A stretch of DNA of 64,000 bases from an uncultured Pseudomonadota bacterium (lineage in GTDB: Bacteria; Pseudomonadota; Gammaproteobacteria; Burkholderiales; SG8-39): NCBI GenBank assembly GCA_903834835.1, contig CAILKO010000052.1:22653-86652 (forward strand), read 5' to 3'. The number at the start of each line of letters is the position of its first letter. The first letter of the stretch is position 1. Under the pieces are notes generated by a model, which was not told the DNA's origin, searched no databases, and saw only the letters and a program-made list of their open reading frames with translations. The position numbers and the translations under genes were made by a program. Shown here piece by piece: positions 2,256 to 59,921 of the stretch.

Positions 2256-4243
2256 CAGGCGGCCTTTCTCGCCGCATCGGGCGCCGCGATCGCGGCATCG
2301 GCGATGCGCAGCGTGGCGCTGATCCGGCCGCTGCGTCCGTCCTCGAAGCGCACCTCGGACTCGATGTAGCACTGCGGCGCGCCGTCGAACATCGCCTCGA
2401 CGAGCGGCTGGTAGCGCTGGCCGATGAAGCGCCGGCGCACCTTGCGCGTGCGGGTGAGCTCCTCGTCGTCCGCATCGAGTTCCTTGTGCAGGATCAGGAA
2501 GCGGTGGATCTGCGCATTGCACAGCACCGGGTCGGCGGCGAGGTCGCGGTTCACGCGTTCCACGCACTCGCGGATCAGGTCGTAGACCGGCGCCTGCTGG
2601 GCGAGATCGGCATAGCCCGCGTAGGGCAGGTTGCGGCGCTCGGCCCAGTTGCCGACCGCCTCCATGTCGATGTTGACGAACGCGCAGACGCGCTCGCGCC
2701 CGTCGCCGAAGGCCACCGCCTCCTTGATATAGGGGAAGAACTTCAGCTTGTTCTCGATGTACTTGGGCGCGAACAGCGTGCCGTCGGCGAGTTTGCCGAC
2801 GTCCTTCGCGCGATCGATGATGCGCAGGTGTCCGCCCGCGTCCAGATAGCCGGCGTCGCCCGTATGGAACCAGCCCTCGGCATCGCGCGCCTCGGCCGTC
2901 GCTTCCGGGTTGCGGAAGTACTCGCGAAACAGGCCCGGGCTGCGGATCAGGATCTCGCCCGCATCGGTGATGCGCAGCTCGACGCCCTTCACCGGCGGGC
3001 CGACGGTATCGGCGCGCACCTCGCCGTCGGGCTGCACGCAGGCGAACACCGCCGTCTCGGTGGAGCCGTAGAGCTGCTTCAGGTTCACGCCGATCGAGCG
3101 GTAGAACACGAAGAGATCCGGCCCGATCGCTTCGCCCGCGGTATAGGCCACGCGGACGCGGCTCATGCCGAGCACATTGCGCAGCGGCCCGTAGACCAGC
3201 AGGTCGCCGATGCGGTAGCGCAGCCGCTCCATGAACGCGACCGGCTCGCGGCCGTCGAGCAGGCGCGCGCCGACGCGCCGCGCGACCTCCATGAAATACC
3301 CGAACATGCGCCGCTTCAGCCAGCCCGCATCCTCCATGCGGATCGTGACCTGGGTGAGCAGGCCTTCCAGCACGCGCGGCGGCGCGAAGTAGTAGGTCGG
3401 GCCGATCTCGCGCATGTCGGCCGTGACCGTATCCGGCGATTCCGGGCAGGAGACGCAGAAGCCGACCACATAGCCCTGGGTATAGGAGAAGATGTTCTGG
3501 CCGATCCACGCGATGGGCAGGTAGGCGAGCACTTCCTCGTCCGGCGTGAGGCCCTCCATCTCCGCGCCGCTGCGACCGGCATGGATCAGCGCCGCATGGG
3601 TGTGCACCACGCCCTTGGGATGGCCGGTGGTCCCCGAGGTGTAGAACATCGCGGCGATGTCCTCGGTGCTGCCGGCGGCGATTTCGTCGAGGAAGTACTC
3701 GGGGTTGCGCTCGGCGAATTCGGCCCCGAGCGAGCGCAGGATCGCGAGACTCATCAGCTCGGGCTGGGCGTAGTGGCGCAGGCCGCGCGGGTCGTCGAAA
3801 CAGATGTGCTTCAGCTTCGGGCACTGCGGCAGGATCTCGAGCAGCTTGTCGACCTGCTCCTGGTCCTCGACCACCGCGAATTCGATCTCGGCGTCCTGCA
3901 GCACGTAGACGAGTTCGGCGGCCACCGCGTCCTCGTACAGCGGTACCGGTATGCCGCCGAGCGCCTGCGCCGCCACCATCGACCAGTACAGGCGCGGACG
4001 ATTCTGGCCGATGATCGCGAGATGCTGGCCGCGGCGGAAGCCCTGCGCCGCGAGGCCGCAGGCGATCCTGCGCACTTCCTCCGCCACCTGGCCCCAGTTC
4101 CAGGTCTGCCAGATGCCGAGATCCTTCTCGCGTATGGCGGGATGCGCCGGGCGCGCTGCGGCATGGTGCAGCAGCAGCCGCGGAAACGTGTCCGCCTTGC
4201 CGGTGTCTATCACAGCCGCACCCGCGGCCGTCGGGGACTGCAT
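2255..4243 (-). CDS. AMP-dependent long-chain acyl-CoA synthetase/ligase
   Basis: MQSPTAAG... start with GAGGAG RBS; AMP-binding motif YTSGTTGHPKGV; overlaps the livG start. Confidence 0.92.
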   Translation of the reverse strand: MQSPTAAGAAVIDTGKADTFPRLLLHHAAARPAHPAIREKDLGIWQTWNWGQVAEEVRRIACGLAAQGFRRGQHLAIIGQNRPRLYWSMVAAQALGGIPVPLYEDAVAAELVYVLQDAEIEFAVVEDQEQVDKLLEILPQCPKLKHICFDDPRGLRHYAQPELMSLAILRSLGAEFAERNPEYFLDEIAAGSTEDIAAMFYTSGTTGHPKGVVHTHAALIHAGRSGAEMEGLTPDEEVLAYLPIAWIGQNIFSYTQGYVVGFCVSCPESPDTVTADMREIGPTYYFAPPRVLEGLLTQVTIRMEDAGWLKRRMFGYFMEVARRVGARLLDGREPVAFMERLRYRIGDLLVYGPLRNVLGMSRVRVAYTAGEAIGPDLFVFYRSIGVNLKQLYGSTETAVFACVQPDGEVRADTVGPPVKGVELRITDAGEILIRSPGLFREYFRNPEATAEARDAEGWFHTGDAGYLDAGGHLRIIDRAKDVGKLADGTLFAPKYIENKLKFFPYIKEAVAFGDGRERVCAFVNIDMEAVGNWAERRNLPYAGYADLAQQAPVYDLIRECVERVNRDLAADPVLCNAQIHRFLILHKELDADDEELTRTRKVRRRFIGQRYQPLVEAMFDGAPQCYIESEVRFEDGRSGRISATLRIADAAIAAPDAARKAA

Positions 4244-4473: not shown

Positions 4474-5646
4474 ATGCCAGCCGCCCTGCCCGCCGCATTG
4501 CCTGCACTCCTCGCCGCCTTCATCGTCTCCGCCTGCGGGCATGCGCTCTACAACGGCAGCCGCATGATCGTCTCGCTGATGGCGATCACGCTGGAGGCGG
4601 GGCCGGCGACGCTCGGCGCGCTCGGGGCGCTCGGCGGGCTGCTGCCGACGCTCTTCGGCGTGCCGCTCGGACGGCTGATCGACCGCGTCGGCGTGGCGCG
4701 GCCGGTGATGGGCAGTCTCGTGCTGGCCGCGCTCGGCATCCTCGCGCCGGGGCTGTGGCCCTCGTACTGGACGCTCGCGCTCGCGAGTCTCCTCGCGGGG
4801 CTTGCCTTCATGATGGGCATCATCGGCGCGAACAAGGCGGTGGCGATGCTCACCTCGCCCGAGCGCCGCGCGGGCCAGCTCGGCTGGCTCTCGGCCACGA
4901 GTTCGATCGGCGGCTCGGCCGCGCTGATGGCGCTTGGCTATGCGGTGGACCACTACGGGCATCGCGCGAGCTTCATGCTCACCGCCCTCGTGCCGGCGGT
5001 TTCCTGCCTCGCGCTCGCCACGCTCGGGCGCAGCCTGCCCCGGCGCGGGCCGGACGCGCCCGCGCAGCGGACCGGCTCCACGATGGATCTGTGGCGCGAT
5101 GCGCCGCTGCGCCGCATGCTGCTGCTCTCGGCGGTGGTGCCGGTGGCGAACGACACCTTCAGCTTCCTGATGCCGATCATCGCCTCCAACCTCGGCTGGT
5201 CGGCCACCCTGACCGGCATCGTGATGGGCAGCGCGCTCGGCGCGGCGATGCTGGCGCGCGCGCTGCTCCCCTGGACGACGCGCGTGATGCGGCCCTGGAC
5301 GCTGCTCGCCGTATCCTTCGTCGCGATCAGCGGGGCCTATCTGCTGATGCCGGTGGTCGAGCACCCGCTCCTGATGGCAGTACTCGCGCTCACGATGGGG
5401 CTCGGCACCGGCATGGCCCCGCCCGTGCTCTCGGCCCTGCTCTACGAGGATTCCCCGCCCGGGCGCCAGGGCGAGGTGTTCGGGATGCGCGGCTCGCTGC
5501 AGTTCGCGCTCGCGGCCGGCGCGCCGCTCGCGGTGGGCGCGCTCGGCACCTTTGTCGGCCTGTCGCCGATGATCTGGGCCATGGGTTTCGCGATGAGCTG
5601 GGCGGCGCGCGTCTCCTTCCGCGAACGCGCACGCCGCGCGGGCTGA
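4474..5646 (+). CDS. MFS transporter (subfamily B; MFS1)
   Basis: 390 aa, 12-TM-like; GGLLPTLFGVPLGRLIDRVG; PPGRQGEVFGMR motif shared with the 11836-12981 protein. Confidence 0.88.
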   Translation: MPAALPAALPALLAAFIVSACGHALYNGSRMIVSLMAITLEAGPATLGALGALGGLLPTLFGVPLGRLIDRVGVARPVMGSLVLAALGILAPGLWPSYWTLALASLLAGLAFMMGIIGANKAVAMLTSPERRAGQLGWLSATSSIGGSAALMALGYAVDHYGHRASFMLTALVPAVSCLALATLGRSLPRRGPDAPAQRTGSTMDLWRDAPLRRMLLLSAVVPVANDTFSFLMPIIASNLGWSATLTGIVMGSALGAAMLARALLPWTTRVMRPWTLLAVSFVAISGAYLLMPVVEHPLLMAVLALTMGLGTGMAPPVLSALLYEDSPPGRQGEVFGMRGSLQFALAAGAPLAVGALGTFVGLSPMIWAMGFAMSWAARVSFRERARRAG

Positions 5647-5679
5647 ATACCGGCAGTAAAAAACGCCCTGTGATGCCAT

Positions 5680-5703
5680 GATAGTAACGTATTTGTTACT
5701 ATC
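5680..5703 (+). promoter_or_regulatory. Palindromic element, site A: GATAGTAAC-GTATTT-GTTACTATC
   Basis: Perfect 9-bp inverted repeat with 6-bp spacer; one of five copies; lies between convergent MFS genes. Confidence 0.8.
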
Positions 5704-5709
5704 TATCTT

Positions 5710-6888
5710 CTACACCCGCCCCGGCTTCCTCCCCACCCAGGCGCCGGCCATCCCCATCAGCGCCGCACCCGCCACGAACACGCCGGCGAGCCCGATCGCG
5801 GCTGCGAGCGCGCCGAAAGCGGGCGGGGTCAGCACGCGCAGCGCCGCGTTGCCGGTGTTGCGCACCGCGAGGAACTGGCTCGCCGCCGCGGGCGGCAGGC
5901 GCGCATAGGCAAGCGTCGAGGTGATCGGGTTCGCCGCATAGCAGGCGTAGCCATAGATGAAGCTCGAGGCGACCAGCACCGCCGCGCCGCTGCCCGCCAG
6001 CAGCAGCACGAGCGAGACGCCCATCAGCACCAGACATAGGCCGAGCACGCGCTCCTCGCCCAGCCAGATGGAAAGCCGCGGCAGCGTGAGCGGCAGCACG
6101 ATCATGCCGATCGCGGACACCGACACCGTCGCACCGATCACCGAGGCCGAGAGCCCCGCCGCATGACCGAAGAGTGGCAGCAGGAAGGGATAGAGCTCGA
6201 AACCCACGCAGCAGATGCTGCTCATCGCGACCAGCCGCCAGACCTCGCGATGGCGGAGCGTCTCCTTCAGCCCGCCTGCGGCGGACTTCGCGCCCACCGG
6301 CGCGGGCAGGCTCTGCCCCCAGACGAGCAGCAGCACCAGCATCGCGAGCGCGAAGGGCAGGTAGACGAGCATCGCGCTCTGCTGCCCGACCGCGTCGATC
6401 GCGATGCCCGAGGCGAAGGGACCGATGAACGCGGTGAAGGAGGAGATGAAGGCGTAGCGGCTGAAATTGCGCGATAGCGTGGCCGGCGTGGAGAGTAGCC
6501 CGACCACCGTCTGTGTGGGCTGGAAGGCGAGCGTGTTCGCTGCGCCGAAGAGCAGCGCCGCCGCGTACACCGAGGCAATCGTCGGCACAAAGAAGGGCAG
6601 CACCGCCCCGGTAACGCTGCAGCAGGCGCTCGCATAGAGGAGCGGCCGCGCGCCCCAGCGATCGAGCGCCATCGACACCGGTATCGAGATGAAGAGCATC
6701 GGGATCTGGCTGCCGGCGGCGATCACGCCGACCTCGAAGGACCCCGCGCCGAGTTCCAGCGCGAACAGCGACAGCGCCACGCGTGCGCCGATCATCGGCA
6801 CGAAGGCGAGCGTGAGCAGTGCAAGGATGAGCTTCAGGCCGGTGCTCATCGGGCTGCGCGCGGATTCCGGGGAGGCGCGGGTAGCCAT
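5710..6888 (-). CDS. MFS transporter (subfamily A; MFS2)
   Basis: 392 aa, hydrophobic; PFLLPLFGHAAGLSASVIG motif. Confidence 0.88.
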   Translation of the reverse strand: MATRASPESARSPMSTGLKLILALLTLAFVPMIGARVALSLFALELGAGSFEVGVIAAGSQIPMLFISIPVSMALDRWGARPLLYASACCSVTGAVLPFFVPTIASVYAAALLFGAANTLAFQPTQTVVGLLSTPATLSRNFSRYAFISSFTAFIGPFASGIAIDAVGQQSAMLVYLPFALAMLVLLLVWGQSLPAPVGAKSAAGGLKETLRHREVWRLVAMSSICCVGFELYPFLLPLFGHAAGLSASVIGATVSVSAIGMIVLPLTLPRLSIWLGEERVLGLCLVLMGVSLVLLLAGSGAAVLVASSFIYGYACYAANPITSTLAYARLPPAAASQFLAVRNTGNAALRVLTPPAFGALAAAIGLAGVFVAGAALMGMAGAWVGRKPGRV

Positions 6889-22232: not shown

Positions 22233-22254
22233 ATAGTAACGTATATGTTACTAT
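22233..22254 (+). promoter_or_regulatory. Palindromic element, site B: ATAGTAAC-GTATAT-GTTACTAT
   Basis: Perfect 8-bp arms, 6-bp spacer; in the divergent gap between MFS8 and the VOC dioxygenase gene. Confidence 0.82.
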
Positions 22255-22501: not shown

Positions 22502-23428
22502 ATGCATCGACACCTGAAGCTCGGCTACCTCGCACTCAACGTGACGAATATGGAAGCCTCGAAGAAGTTCTACGAATCCATGGTCGGCCTGAACCTCACG
22601 GAGATCGGTGCGAACGGCGAGCATTTCTTCCGCTGCAGCGACGACCATCACAACATCGTGCTCTACAAGAAGGACCAGGCCAGCCTGAAGCGCATCGGCT
22701 GGGAGCTGGAGAGCGAGTCCGACATGAACCAGCTCTACAGCGCGCTCGAGCGCAGCAAGGTCAAGGTCCGCGAGGTGGATGCCGCGGAGCGCGCCTTCCT
22801 GCACCAGGGCCGCACCATCCGCTTCGAGGATCCGTTCAGCGGCGCGGTGCACGAGTACTACACCGACCAGCGGCGCCTTGGCGGCACGCCCTTCGAGCCG
22901 ACGGTCGCCAAGATCCAGAAGCTCGGCCACGTCGTGCTGAAAACCCCGCGCTACGAAGACGCGCTCGCCTTCTACATGGACGTGCTCAACTTCCGTTCCT
23001 CGGATTTCGTCGAAGGCATGATCACCTTCATGCGCGCCTTCCCGATCCCCTACCACCACTCCTTCGGCCTCGCGAAAAGCGACAAGGGCGCGATGCACCA
23101 CCTGAACTTCATGGTGTCCGAGGTGGACGACATCGGCAAGGGGATGTGGCGCTACAAGAAGAATGACGTCGTCGTGGTGCGCGGACCGGGTCGTCACCCC
23201 CCCTCGGGCGCGATGTTCCTGTACGCGCTCGACCCGGACGGCCACACGGTGGAATACAGCTTCGGCATGGAAGAGTTCCCGGAAGTGAGCCCGCGCAAGC
23301 CGCGCCAGCTTCCGCCGCTTCCGGAGTCGATCGATTTCTGGGGTGCTCCGACAGACCCGCGCATGGGCGCCACCGGCAACATCGAAAAGGCCGAGGCTGC
23401 CCCGGCGAAGAAGCTGCAGCCCGCCTGA
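22502..23428 (+). CDS. VOC-family extradiol ring-cleavage dioxygenase-like protein
   Basis: Two glyoxalase-fold modules: HLKLGYLALNVTNMEASKKFYESMVGLN and KLGHVVLKTPRYEDALAFYMDVLNF; ALDPDGHTVEYSF near the C-terminus. Confidence 0.85.
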   Translation: MHRHLKLGYLALNVTNMEASKKFYESMVGLNLTEIGANGEHFFRCSDDHHNIVLYKKDQASLKRIGWELESESDMNQLYSALERSKVKVREVDAAERAFLHQGRTIRFEDPFSGAVHEYYTDQRRLGGTPFEPTVAKIQKLGHVVLKTPRYEDALAFYMDVLNFRSSDFVEGMITFMRAFPIPYHHSFGLAKSDKGAMHHLNFMVSEVDDIGKGMWRYKKNDVVVVRGPGRHPPSGAMFLYALDPDGHTVEYSFGMEEFPEVSPRKPRQLPPLPESIDFWGAPTDPRMGATGNIEKAEAAPAKKLQPA

Positions 23429-37021: not shown

Positions 37022-37043
37022 ATAGTAACGCATATGTTACTAT
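37022..37043 (+). promoter_or_regulatory. Palindromic element, site C: ATAGTAAC-GCATAT-GTTACTAT
   Basis: Perfect 8-bp arms; overlaps the phrB stop codon (37040-37042), 54 nt upstream of the yaiI-like start. Confidence 0.8.
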
Positions 37044-38476
37044 GTACGCAGATTCCTGCTCTCGTCCTCCTTCTTCAGCAGCCCGTAGCGCGCAAGCGTG
37101 CGGCGGCGTGCTTCGGCGTGGTCCACCACCGGGGCGGGATAGTCACAGCCTGCCGCCTGCTGTTCGAGCGGGGCCATGCGCCAGGGCTCGTGGATCAGCG
37201 CGGCCGGCACGCGCGCGAGCTCGGGAACCCAGCGGCGGATGTAGCTGCCCTCGGGATCGAACTTGCGCGACTGGGTCACGGGATTGAAGATCCGGAACCA
37301 GGGCTGGGCGTCGCAGCCGGTGGACGCGCTCCACTGCCAGCCGCCGTTGTTCGCCGCGAGATCGTGATCGAGCAGCTGCGCGGCGAACCAGGCTTCGCCG
37401 CGGCGCCAGTCGAGACCGAGGTGTTTCACGAGAAAGGAGGCGACAAGCATGCGCAGCCGGTTGTGCATGAGCCCGGTCGCGGCGAGTTCGCGCATCGCCG
37501 CATCCACCAGTGGATAGCCGGTGCGGCCCTCGCACCAGGCACGGTAAAACGCGCCGTCCGCATCCGGCTCCCAGACGAGCGCATCGAACTGCGGCTTGAA
37601 CGCGCGCCTGACCACATCGGGTCGCCAGGCGAGTATCGCCTGATAGAAGTCGCGCCACACGAGTTCGGAGAGCCAGGCGGCCGATCCCTCTCCGGGCGCC
37701 GCGAGCGCGAAGCGCACGAGGGCGCGGATCGACACCGTGCCGAAACGCAGATGCGCTGACAGGCCCGAAGTCCCGTCGATCGCGGGAAAGTCGCGCCGCG
37801 CGGCGTAGTCGCGCAGACGCGGCACGAAGGCGCTGAGCCGGCGCGCGCCCGCCGCCATGCCGGGTTCGATTGCGCAAGCCGCAGGCCGGAAGCCGAGCTC
37901 GGCAAGCGTCGGCACGACCGCCTGCGCGGGCTCCGCCGGTGCAAGCCTCCCCGGATGAACGCGGGTGTCGCGCGACGCATGATCCTCCGGCGCGAGCTTC
38001 TCCAGCCAGGCGCGCTTGTAGGGCGTGAAGACCGAGAACGCCGTGCCACCGCGCGTGCGCACCTCGTCCAGCTCGAAGACCACCTGGTCCTTGCGCGTGC
38101 GCCAGTCGATGCCGCAGGCGGCAAGCGCCTCGGCGACCGCGGCATCGCGCCTGATCGCTGCGGGCTCGTAGTCGCGATTCGCATAGACCGCCGCCACGCC
38201 GAGCGCATGCGCGAGCTTCGGAATCTCCTCTTCGGCGCTGCCGCGCAGAATACGCAGCGCGCCACCGCGCGCCGCGAGCGCGTCGCCAAGTTCGACCACA
38301 CTGGCATGCAGAAAACCCACGCGCCGGTTGTCCGGCGCGAGCTGACCGAGGATGGCGCTGTCGAACACGAACACGCAGTGCACCTGCTCGTGCGCTGCTA
38401 GCGCTGCGGCGAGCGCCGCATGATCGTCATCGCGCAGATCGCGCCTGAACCAGACGAGGGCTGCCTCAGCGCTCAT
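37040..38476 (-). CDS. phrB: Deoxyribodipyrimidine photolyase
   Basis: [59 protein letters not shown]. Confidence 0.95.
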
Positions 38477-47687: not shown

Positions 47688-47756
47688 GAACCGGCGCCCG
47701 CTGCGGGCAGTATCAGAGGGATTCCTGGAGGATCCTTGGCGGGATTCCTGCCTTAG

Positions 47757-47778
47757 TTAGTAACATTTACGTTACCAT
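47757..47778 (-). promoter_or_regulatory. Palindromic element, site D (imperfect): TTAGTAAC-ATTTAC-GTTACCAT
   Basis: Core GTAAC-N6-GTTAC kept; reverse complement ATGGTAAC-GTAAAT-GTTACTAA; touches the MFS9 stop codon. Confidence 0.72.
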
Positions 47779-48959
47779 CAAGTGCTGCGACCGCCCCCGG
47801 TGCCCCCTCGCTCGGGTCTGGGTGCCGGCGCGGGCGCATCCCTGAGCACCGCGAGCGCCGAGATCCACAGCAGCGCGCCGCAGGTCAGGAACACGGTGAA
47901 CAGACCGGCTGCGACCGACAGTGCCCCGTAGCCGGACGGCCCGGCGATGCGCACGATCGCATTGCCGGTCATGCGCAGACCCATCGACTGCCCGGCCGCG
48001 CCCTTGCCGGAGCGCTTGTACATGATGAGCGTCGTGACCGGCGCGCCGCTGGAGACGCCGATGCCGTAGAGCATCGCCGCGCAGACCAGCAGGAGGGGCG
48101 CATCCATGAACGGCATGACCATGAAGGCGAGTCCGGTCATGCCCATCGAGAACGCGAGCAGGCGCTCCTCGCCGAAGCGCGGCACCGTATGCGGCAGCGT
48201 GAAACGCATCGCGAACGAAGTCGCGGACCCGGAGGCCATGATCCAGCCGATCACAGCGGGCTCCAGCCCCAGCGCGTGGCCGTAGAGCGGCATGCAGAAG
48301 GGATAGAAATCGACCGCCATCTGCACCACCGCATTCATCCACATGATGCGCCAGAAGCCCGGGTCGCGCAGCGTATCCCCGAGCCGGGTCTGCGCGGCGC
48401 GCGCGCCCTGGCCGGGCGGCAGCCGGCTGCCGATCGCGAGCACCGACGCGGCCACGAGCACCGCCACCCCCGCGAGCGCGAGACAGGCGCGCTCGTGCCC
48501 GAGCAGCTGGATGGCATAGCCGCCGACGAGCGGCCCGGTCATCGCGGTGGCCGAGAGCACCAGCGCGAGGTTGCCGTAGGTGCGCGTCAGTTCGTCCGGA
48601 TGGCTGAGCTGCCCGACCACCACCTGGGAGAGCACCATGATCACCACGGAGAACACACCGAGCAGCGCCGCCCCGACAAAAAGGCTGGCGACGCCGGGCA
48701 GGGCATAGGGCAGGGCAAGACCGGCCGCGCCGGTGAGCGCCGCGCCGGCCATGAGCCAGCGTGCCCCGTAGCGATCGCAGAGCATGCCGACCGGCACCGA
48801 CAGGAAGAGCGAGGGGAGCTGGATCATCGCCGCAAGGAGTCCGGTACGGAACTCGCCCAGACCTGCATCCAGCGCATAGAGCGTCAGCACCATGCGCGCC
48901 GCGAAGGTCGCGGCGATCGCGAGGTACAGGATGCCGAATACGACGCGCCTGAGCGGCAT
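47778..48959 (-). CDS. MFS transporter (subfamily A; MFS9)
   Basis: Start MPLRRVVFGILYLAIAATFAARMVLTLYALDAGLGEF; PFCMPLYGHALGLEPAVIG. Confidence 0.85.
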   Translation of the reverse strand: MPLRRVVFGILYLAIAATFAARMVLTLYALDAGLGEFRTGLLAAMIQLPSLFLSVPVGMLCDRYGARWLMAGAALTGAAGLALPYALPGVASLFVGAALLGVFSVVIMVLSQVVVGQLSHPDELTRTYGNLALVLSATAMTGPLVGGYAIQLLGHERACLALAGVAVLVAASVLAIGSRLPPGQGARAAQTRLGDTLRDPGFWRIMWMNAVVQMAVDFYPFCMPLYGHALGLEPAVIGWIMASGSATSFAMRFTLPHTVPRFGEERLLAFSMGMTGLAFMVMPFMDAPLLLVCAAMLYGIGVSSGAPVTTLIMYKRSGKGAAGQSMGLRMTGNAIVRIAGPSGYGALSVAAGLFTVFLTCGALLWISALAVLRDAPAPAPRPERGGTGGGRST

Positions 48960-48976
48960 GCCGAGCACCGCGCGCC

Positions 48977-49336
48977 TCAGCGGCCGCGCAGTTCCCCGTT
49001 CTTCAGCATACGTTCCAGGTCCTCGGCGCCACCGATCAGCACGCCCTTCACGAACACCATCGGAAAAGTGCTCCAGCCGGACCACAGCTTCAGCGCAAGG
49101 CGCCGTCGCCACTGGCTGAAATAGCTGCCGTATTCGAGATAACAGTAGGCTATGCCGGCCGCATCGAGCAGGCGGCGCGCCTTCTTCGGAAACGGGTTCT
49201 GGCGCATGCCGACGATCACATAGTCGTTCGCCGCAAGCGCGGCACGCACCTCGTCCACAACCTCCAGTCCGTTCGCGGCGATGCGCTCGCGGATCGCGGG
49301 GTGGATGCGGTCTTCTTCCAGCACGGCACGCGCCAT
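48977..49336 (-). CDS. Glutaredoxin-fold-like protein without the usual active-site Cys
   Basis: YVIVGMRQNPFPKKARRLLDAAGIAYCYLEYG...TFPMVFVKGVLIGGAEDLERMLKNGEL resembles glutaredoxin. Confidence 0.6.
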   Translation of the reverse strand: MARAVLEEDRIHPAIRERIAANGLEVVDEVRAALAANDYVIVGMRQNPFPKKARRLLDAAGIAYCYLEYGSYFSQWRRRLALKLWSGWSTFPMVFVKGVLIGGAEDLERMLKNGELRGR

Positions 49337-49497
49337 GGTCTCTCCAGGGATGCGGTACGGAGCGCCGGTACGGGCCCCGCAAGCCCCGCATTCTGTCACG
49401 CGTTCCGGCATCGGCGCCTGCAGGTCCGGCGCAGGTGCGGCGGCTATAATCCCGCTCCTGCCGCGCGCCAGGCCGGCGCACTCTTTCAGGAGGAAGC

Positions 49498-50718
49498 GTG
49501 AACCCGTTCCACATCGCAAGCATTGGAAGTCTCTTCAGCACACGCCGCATCCAGGGCCTCGCGCTCGCGGGCGCGCTCGCCGCCTCCGCCCTGTCCGGCA
49601 TCGCGATCGGCGCCGACAAGGTGCGCGTCGGCATGGTCTCCACGCTGTCCGGCCCGCCGGGGGCGCTCGGCATCGACATGCGCGACGGCTTCAACCTCGC
49701 GCTGAAGCATCTGGGCGGCAAGCTGGGCGGCATCCCGGTCGAACTGCTGGTGGCTGACGACAACTTCAACCCCGAAACCGGCAAACAGGCCGTCGAGCGC
49801 TTCGTGAAGCGCGACAAGGTGGACTTCGTCACCGGCATCATCTACTCCAACATCATGCTCGCCGCGGGTCAGGCTGCGTTCGAATCCGGCACCCCCTACG
49901 TAAGCGCGAACGCCGGGCCCTCGCAATACGCCGGCAAGGACTGCAATCCGTGGTTCGTATCCGCCGCCTGGCAGAACGACAGCTTCCACGAGGCCGCCGG
50001 CCAGCACGCGACCAACAAGGGCTTCAAGACGGTCTACCTGATGGCGCCGAACTATCCGGCCGGCAAGGATGCACTCACCGGCTTCAAGCGCTATTACAAG
50101 GGCAAGGTCGCCGACGAAGTCTATGTGCGGCTCGGTCAGCTCGATTTCGCGGCCGAGCTCGCGCAGTTGCGCGCGGCAAAGCCCGAGGCGGTGTTCGTGT
50201 TCTTCCCGGGGGGCATGGGCGTGAACTTCATCAAGCAGTATGTCGCCGCCGGTCTCGCCAAGGACTCGACGCTGATCCTGCCGGGCTTCTCGGCTGACCA
50301 GGACATCATCTCCGCGGTGGGCGACTCCATGCTCGGCCTGTTCAACACCGCACACTGGTCCCCCGATCTCGACAACGCCGACAACAAGCGCTTCATGGCC
50401 GATTTCCAGACCGAATACAAGCGCATTCCCTCGGTCTACGCGGCCCAGGGCTACGACACCGCGATGCTGATGGACGCGGGTGTGCGCGGCGCCAAGGGCA
50501 AGGTCGAGAACCGCGCCGCACTGATGAAGGCGATGAAAACGGTGAAGGCGCGCTCGGTGCGCGGCGACTACAGGATTGGGGCGAACGGCTATCCGGTGCA
50601 GAACTACTACCTGCGCGTGATCGGCAAGGACGCACAGGGCCAGATCGTCAACAAGACCATGGGCACGATCTTCGCGAACCATGCCGACGCCTACGGCAAG
50701 GAATGCAAGCTGAAGTAG
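49498..50718 (+). CDS. Branched-chain amino acid-type ABC transporter substrate-binding protein
   Basis: Signal peptide; VRVGMVSTLSGPPGALGIDMRDGFNLALKHLGGKLGGIPVELLVADDNFNPETGKQAVERFV. Confidence 0.93.
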   Translation: MNPFHIASIGSLFSTRRIQGLALAGALAASALSGIAIGADKVRVGMVSTLSGPPGALGIDMRDGFNLALKHLGGKLGGIPVELLVADDNFNPETGKQAVERFVKRDKVDFVTGIIYSNIMLAAGQAAFESGTPYVSANAGPSQYAGKDCNPWFVSAAWQNDSFHEAAGQHATNKGFKTVYLMAPNYPAGKDALTGFKRYYKGKVADEVYVRLGQLDFAAELAQLRAAKPEAVFVFFPGGMGVNFIKQYVAAGLAKDSTLILPGFSADQDIISAVGDSMLGLFNTAHWSPDLDNADNKRFMADFQTEYKRIPSVYAAQGYDTAMLMDAGVRGAKGKVENRAALMKAMKTVKARSVRGDYRIGANGYPVQNYYLRVIGKDAQGQIVNKTMGTIFANHADAYGKECKLK

Positions 50719-59899: not shown

Positions 59900-59921
59900 T
59901 TAGTAACATATACGTTACTAT
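59900..59921 (-). promoter_or_regulatory. Palindromic element, site E: TTAGTAAC-ATATAC-GTTACTAT
   Basis: Reverse complement ATAGTAAC-GTATAT-GTTACTAA matches site B at 21 of 22 positions; between the DUF1643 stop and the dienelactone hydrolase start. Confidence 0.8.

Follow-up and report, generated by a model that had tools for sequence, protein, structure and literature searches.

What a palindrome lying between the 3′ ends of two convergent genes might do is the question raised by one locus in the DNA analyzed here, a stretch of 64,000 nucleotides (hereafter the window) that corresponds to positions 22,653–86,652 of contig C52 in a 3.37-Mb draft genome made up of 74 contigs and 89% complete. 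Two genes encoding MFS transporters, MFS1 (4474..5646, plus strand; PF07690, E = 5e-36) and MFS2 (5710..6888, minus strand; PF07690, E = 3e-27), converge on the palindrome, named element A, with stops at 5646 and 5710. This arrangement, proposed in a preliminary description of the locus, was borne out, both products being assigned to Pfam MFS_1, and the outward-facing TACTAT reported in each arm was found to be present. The wording "perfect 24-bp palindrome" was loose: the 24-bp span (5680..5703; GATAGTAAC-GTATTT-GTTACTATC, core at 5684-5699) does contain perfect 9-bp arms, but its 6-nt centre is not self-complementary. Nor does the palindrome fill the 63-bp gap, as had been stated, although with its outer motifs the element reaches beyond both stop codons. 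The full modelled extent, comprising outer symmetric motifs, stem and core, is 92 bp (5646..5737; 47.5 bits with model R1, at C52:28298-28389) and extends into the MFS2 coding sequence at its 3′ end.

A second palindrome, site D, had been placed in a similar convergent gap, and its core (GTAACATTTACGTTAC, 47760..47775; 53.7 bits with R1) indeed lies inside the gap 47688-47777, which separates a cyclopropane-fatty-acid-synthase-like gene from an MFS gene (47778-49841, minus strand) whose stop is found 2 bp past the core. Exact GTAAC-N6-GTTAC sites occur five times in the window, at 5684, 22236, 37025, 47760 and 59903, two of the five being in convergent gaps. The three further cores, also scored with R1, are GTAACGTATATGTTAC (22236..22251; 60.6 bits), GTAACGCATATGTTAC (37025..37040; 54.7 bits) and GTAACATATACGTTAC (59903..59918; 55.1 bits). 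The TAG stop of a DNA photolyase gene (37040-38476, minus strand) overlaps the edge of the core at 37025..37040, and within 37025-37042 this stop codon is made at the element edge. As detailed below, sites A and D are members of a genome-wide, evenly spaced and lineage-specific family.

A genome-wide family of intact elements in a single genus

The recurrence of palindrome A is not due to chance. At the scale of the whole draft genome, TAGTAACN6GTTACTA with no more than one mismatch gave 173 matches on the forward strand, the five window sites among them, compared with none for the reversed pattern used as a control. A profile scan of 2.2 Mb returned 119 elements scoring above 31 bits and no decayed copies scoring 12–31 bits, the reversed control also giving none. 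Given this absence of intermediate scores, the copies seem either to be maintained or to have arisen very recently. In the DNA flanking the elements there was almost no homology between copies, so the copies did not arise by recent duplication of longer segments.

Searches of other genomes drew a sharp boundary around the family. With the same pattern and tolerance, the 97 other genomes of the taxonomic family gave zero or one weak match apiece; a looser pattern matched at background level in 60 relatives, and a covariance model built on the entire element had hits in its source genome but in none of the 96 remaining family genomes that were searched. The search of GTDB genomes, from which near relatives of the window were possibly left out, gave 13 scattered single stretches, in the flanks of which the full element was not recognized by eye, and five viral contigs carried one site each. 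Among the genomes searched, the element is unique to one genus, which is represented by one species. The idea of a family-wide system relying on a different palindrome was rejected, as no comparable AT-rich palindrome family emerged when 174 kb of one relative and 193 kb of another were scanned de novo. Separately, one contig of a Bacteroidales MAG was seen to carry two AT-rich palindromes with GTAAC-N6-GTTAC, at positions 3623 and 4907 and hence within 1.3 kb, which share a longer repeat and look unrelated to the element.

Anatomy of the element

Anatomy and genomic context were analyzed in 120 elements extracted from 2.23 Mb of the genome. The core, TAGTAAC-N6-GTTACTA, was almost invariant across the 120 copies. 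Outside the core, positions 3–13 (about 11 positions) form a stem in which bases differ between copies and are complementary within each copy, with z values mostly of about 3 to 5. Arms extended by at least 8 bp in 31 copies, whereas pairing arms across copies predicted 1.1. When 40 copies were counted independently, the covariation score reached 0.259, versus 0.134 ± 0.013 after shuffling, and in the same 40-copy count slid pairings scored 0.112 at most. Farther out, at positions 18–32 on both sides of the core, an outer motif of approximate sequence CCgnATTTTCYTCCCC was found, which showed no covariation. One copy was peculiar: the first 60 bp of contig C35 (C35:1-60) form a perfect palindrome built around an element core, with 22-bp arms beyond the core, which is either a genuine long hairpin or the result of the assembly folding back on itself.

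Even spacing along the chromosome

Spacing between neighbouring elements was assessed on nearly complete contigs amounting to 66% of the 74-contig draft. The 102 spacings had a mean of 18.8 kb and a coefficient of variation (CV) of 0.60. A null model in which an equal number of intergenic gaps was drawn with the observed gap-type weights, and which rests on home-made gene calls, gave a CV of 0.95 ± 0.09, and the genome was more extreme than every one of 5000 simulations. Short spacings were rare, with 2 below 3 kb where 15 were expected and 11 below 8 kb where 37 were expected. The spacing is even, not periodic. The REPs of E. coli showed a CV of 0.74 with 3 of 18 spacings very short, a sample of 18 that is too small to decide the comparison. 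GC skew placed the inferred origin near the right end of C35 and the inferred terminus near C23:40 kb; no match to an E. coli-type dif pattern was found. Elements flank the skew switches near C35:420-460 kb and C23:40 kb on both sides.

The reading that we tentatively favour, with somewhat less than even confidence, is that of an undescribed, evenly spaced DNA-level site, bound or extruded, with a chromosome-organizing role. A structural role was also the best among the options offered in the preliminary description. Against an organizing site, it must be said that an element with a core chromosome function would not be expected to be missing from the rest of the family, and that a plain duplex-binding protein would not need covarying stems.

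Gene context, insertion sequences and a possible mobile origin

The main rival account, rather unlikely in our judgement, sees in the elements a palindromic, REP-like repeat that is lineage-specific, of mobile origin and without host function. According to it, a short core unit would have invaded gene 3′ ends in recent times, perhaps landing in existing terminator hairpins whose stems turned into the variable arms, and the even spacing would stem from target immunity or from selection against close pairs. REP families occupy intergenic DNA, for the most part gaps between convergent or unidirectional genes (PMC3733652), and the gap preference observed here is alike. Genes were called with a simple, home-made codon-usage caller (2087 genes), and only 2 of the 120 elements fell inside predicted genes despite 90% of the sequence being coding; 41 were placed in convergent, 55 in tandem and 13 in divergent gaps, and 9 at contig edges. 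In tandem gaps the median distance was 39 nt to the stop versus 88 nt to the next start, with the stop being the nearer in 42 of the 55. TAG or TAA codons inside the element are used by 30 of 143 neighbouring gene ends, which also fits the insertion of a mobile unit, and the remaining ends lie mostly 30–60 nt from the element, forming the main peak. Confinement of the element to one genus counts as well in favour of such a repeat.

REPs are also targets of insertion sequences (PMC1525189), and so are the elements described here. The right end of an insertion sequence was found at 15 contig ends (C4, C15, C23, C24, C25, C36, C44, C45, C47, C48, C52, C54, C63, C64 and C66), in all 15 cases at 18–20 bp from an element core and in the same orientation. 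Its C-terminal peptide matched in tblastn searches proteins annotated as IS30 family transposases, and the 43-aa fragment was left unclassified by NCBIfam; because the interior of the insertion sequence is missing from the assembly, assignment to the IS30 family rests on these 43 residues. This IS30-family element breaks the assembly and, given the constant distance of its right end from the core, behaves as a site-specific insertion sequence. Since only 15 right-end junctions were seen, the palindromic element is the target of the insertion sequence, not its product. IS30 inserts into hot-spot sequences that are nearly palindromic (PMC9333248); similarly, the IS30-family element of this genome chooses a palindrome, but it inserts beside it, at a set distance and in a single orientation. 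A second repeat (ACCGGCATCCCGGCATCCGCCTGCTTCAGG...GGGGGGCAGGTCA), probably another insertion sequence, was observed at the starts of C12, C24, C71 and C74, and on C71 it lies about 50 bp from an element.

The likeness to the REP/BIME sequences of E. coli, Pseudomonas and others, which are short, dispersed intergenic palindromes with a bias for 3′ ends and convergent gaps, does not extend much further. In REPs, one end of the palindrome is by definition marked by the tetranucleotide GTAG or CGTC (PMC3733652), whereas in the elements, which are symmetric, no one-sided tag was seen and neither tetranucleotide was conserved at the stem foot (outward positions 12–17). Dimers or clusters were never found. 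No RAYT (Y1) transposase was detected, with zero PF01797 matches in the genome, 89% complete as it is, although RAYT genes of REP systems can be lost (PMC3733652). Also unlike REPs, the elements show no decayed copies and possess stems that differ from copy to copy yet covary within each copy, an outer motif that remains symmetric even in tandem gaps, and even spacing. Finally, recent spread leaves unexplained how copies with arms that diverge from one another can coexist with a complete lack of decayed copies.

The element probably acts at the DNA level

The location of the elements at gene 3′ ends, with the main peak of distances 30–60 nt past the stop, would suit a bidirectional transcription terminator or an mRNA 3′-end hairpin, an explanation that we nonetheless consider improbable. 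In its support, a simple scan reports site A as terminator-like, and pairing of stems was highest in convergent gaps (0.61, versus 0.48 in tandem and 0.39 in divergent gaps), a difference that may reflect weaker promoter constraint or a 3′-end role. However, a U-tract directly after the contiguous arm was generally absent, with 9% of sides having at least 5 T in 8. Analysis of mismatches in the stems of tandem gaps, read in the transcribed direction, gave 52 G-T mismatches versus 74 expected and 41 A-C mismatches versus 54.5 expected. The two classes were depleted equally, with no excess of G-U over A-C, so that G-U tolerance is absent. Polarity was lacking too, as the outer motif had equal strength upstream and downstream of the core in tandem gaps (P = 0.42). 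In addition, a terminator would account neither for the near-invariant core sequence nor for even spacing over tens of kb, and the majority of gene 3′ ends have no element. The terminator contemplated in the preliminary description is, as an intrinsic one, not supported, given the missing U-tract after the stem and the missing polarity in tandem gaps. The divergent antisense promoters that it also contemplated fared no better: no clear −35 box was found at promoter distance, the mean best match being 2.55/6 versus a background of 2.27/6.

Combined, the lack of wobble tolerance, the symmetry of the outer motif and the absence of U-tract and −35 box speak for an element that acts at the level of DNA, not RNA, and leave the terminator, antisense-promoter and operator readings unsupported. 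An RNA element was rejected, there being no credible Rfam match and no G-U tolerance. A DNA uptake signal was discarded as well, since TAGTAAC half-sites outside palindromes number just 11.

Inverted repeats of this shape are bound by dimeric helix-turn-helix repressors, and the 20-bp inverted repeat with a 6-nt spacer, several copies of which are in divergent or upstream gaps, could be imagined as the operator of a global transcription factor. We regard this as very improbable, in agreement with the initial suspicion that a repressor operator was unlikely at locus A: convergent gaps are over-represented (41 of 109 classified sites), divergent gaps hold fewer sites than their share (13 of the 109, although 281 of the 962 gaps of 60 bp or more are divergent), genes with element-proximal starts share no theme by eye, and covarying stems, outer motifs and even spacing are left unexplained. 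Short palindromes scattered over the chromosome might also suggest sites for partition or nucleoid occlusion like those of parS, Noc or SlmA, a reading just as improbable: six elements were located in C23:1-45 kb, around the terminus as inferred from GC skew, the genome's only ParB is matched by a near-canonical parS at the inferred origin (C35:442506), and no ParB/Noc paralogue was found in the genome. Identity with parS itself was rejected on the grounds that the element is unlike GTTTCACGTGAAAC, that it is genome-wide rather than clustered near the origin, and that the genome has its own parS-like site. The families searched (Y1 transposase, ParB/Noc) yielded no candidate for a protein binding the element.

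A putative chromosome-organizing site

If the element is the organizing site that we favour, it would work as DNA, and a dedicated, putative DNA-binding protein would read the core and perhaps also the outer motifs, with hairpin or cruciform extrusion of the stem possibly helping recognition. Bound, evenly spaced sites could then serve as anchors or domain markers in chromosome folding, supercoil control or segregation. The bias for 3′ ends would then mean that promoters and coding DNA are avoided, and perhaps that torsion-rich positions under convergent transcription are used. In its fullest form, which we propose with less confidence than the general one, about 173 evenly spaced, genus-specific DNA-level hairpin elements would divide the whole chromosome into domains of about 19 kb by means of a putative recognition protein.

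Two known systems offer partial parallels. The matS site, of 13 bp, is present in 23 copies confined to the 800-kb terminus domain (PMC3330122). Like MatP/matS of Enterobacteria and Vibrio, the element is a short, repeated palindromic site restricted to some lineages, and organization of DNA, established for matS (PMC3330122), is a putative role here; unlike matS, it occurs throughout the genome in about 173 copies, differs in sequence, and has outer motifs and a stem that covaries. In Sulfolobales, SegB sites are palindromes scattered across the chromosome, as the elements are, and the protein bound to them links organization and segregation (PMC12284271). However, the approximately 46 SegB sites are mainly intragenic and clustered near segAB, in contrast to the intergenic and evenly spread elements.

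If true, an entire bacterial chromosome spaced by sequence-defined sites would be out of the ordinary, since matS is limited to the terminus domain and REPs are tagged and associated with a transposase gene. In that case, the presence in a single genus of an intact element every 19 kb or so, with stems that covary and no copy decayed, would make domain formation directly testable. Should the elements be a mobile family instead, we would be dealing with palindromic repeats whose spacing is controlled although no RAYT is present, an informative case too.
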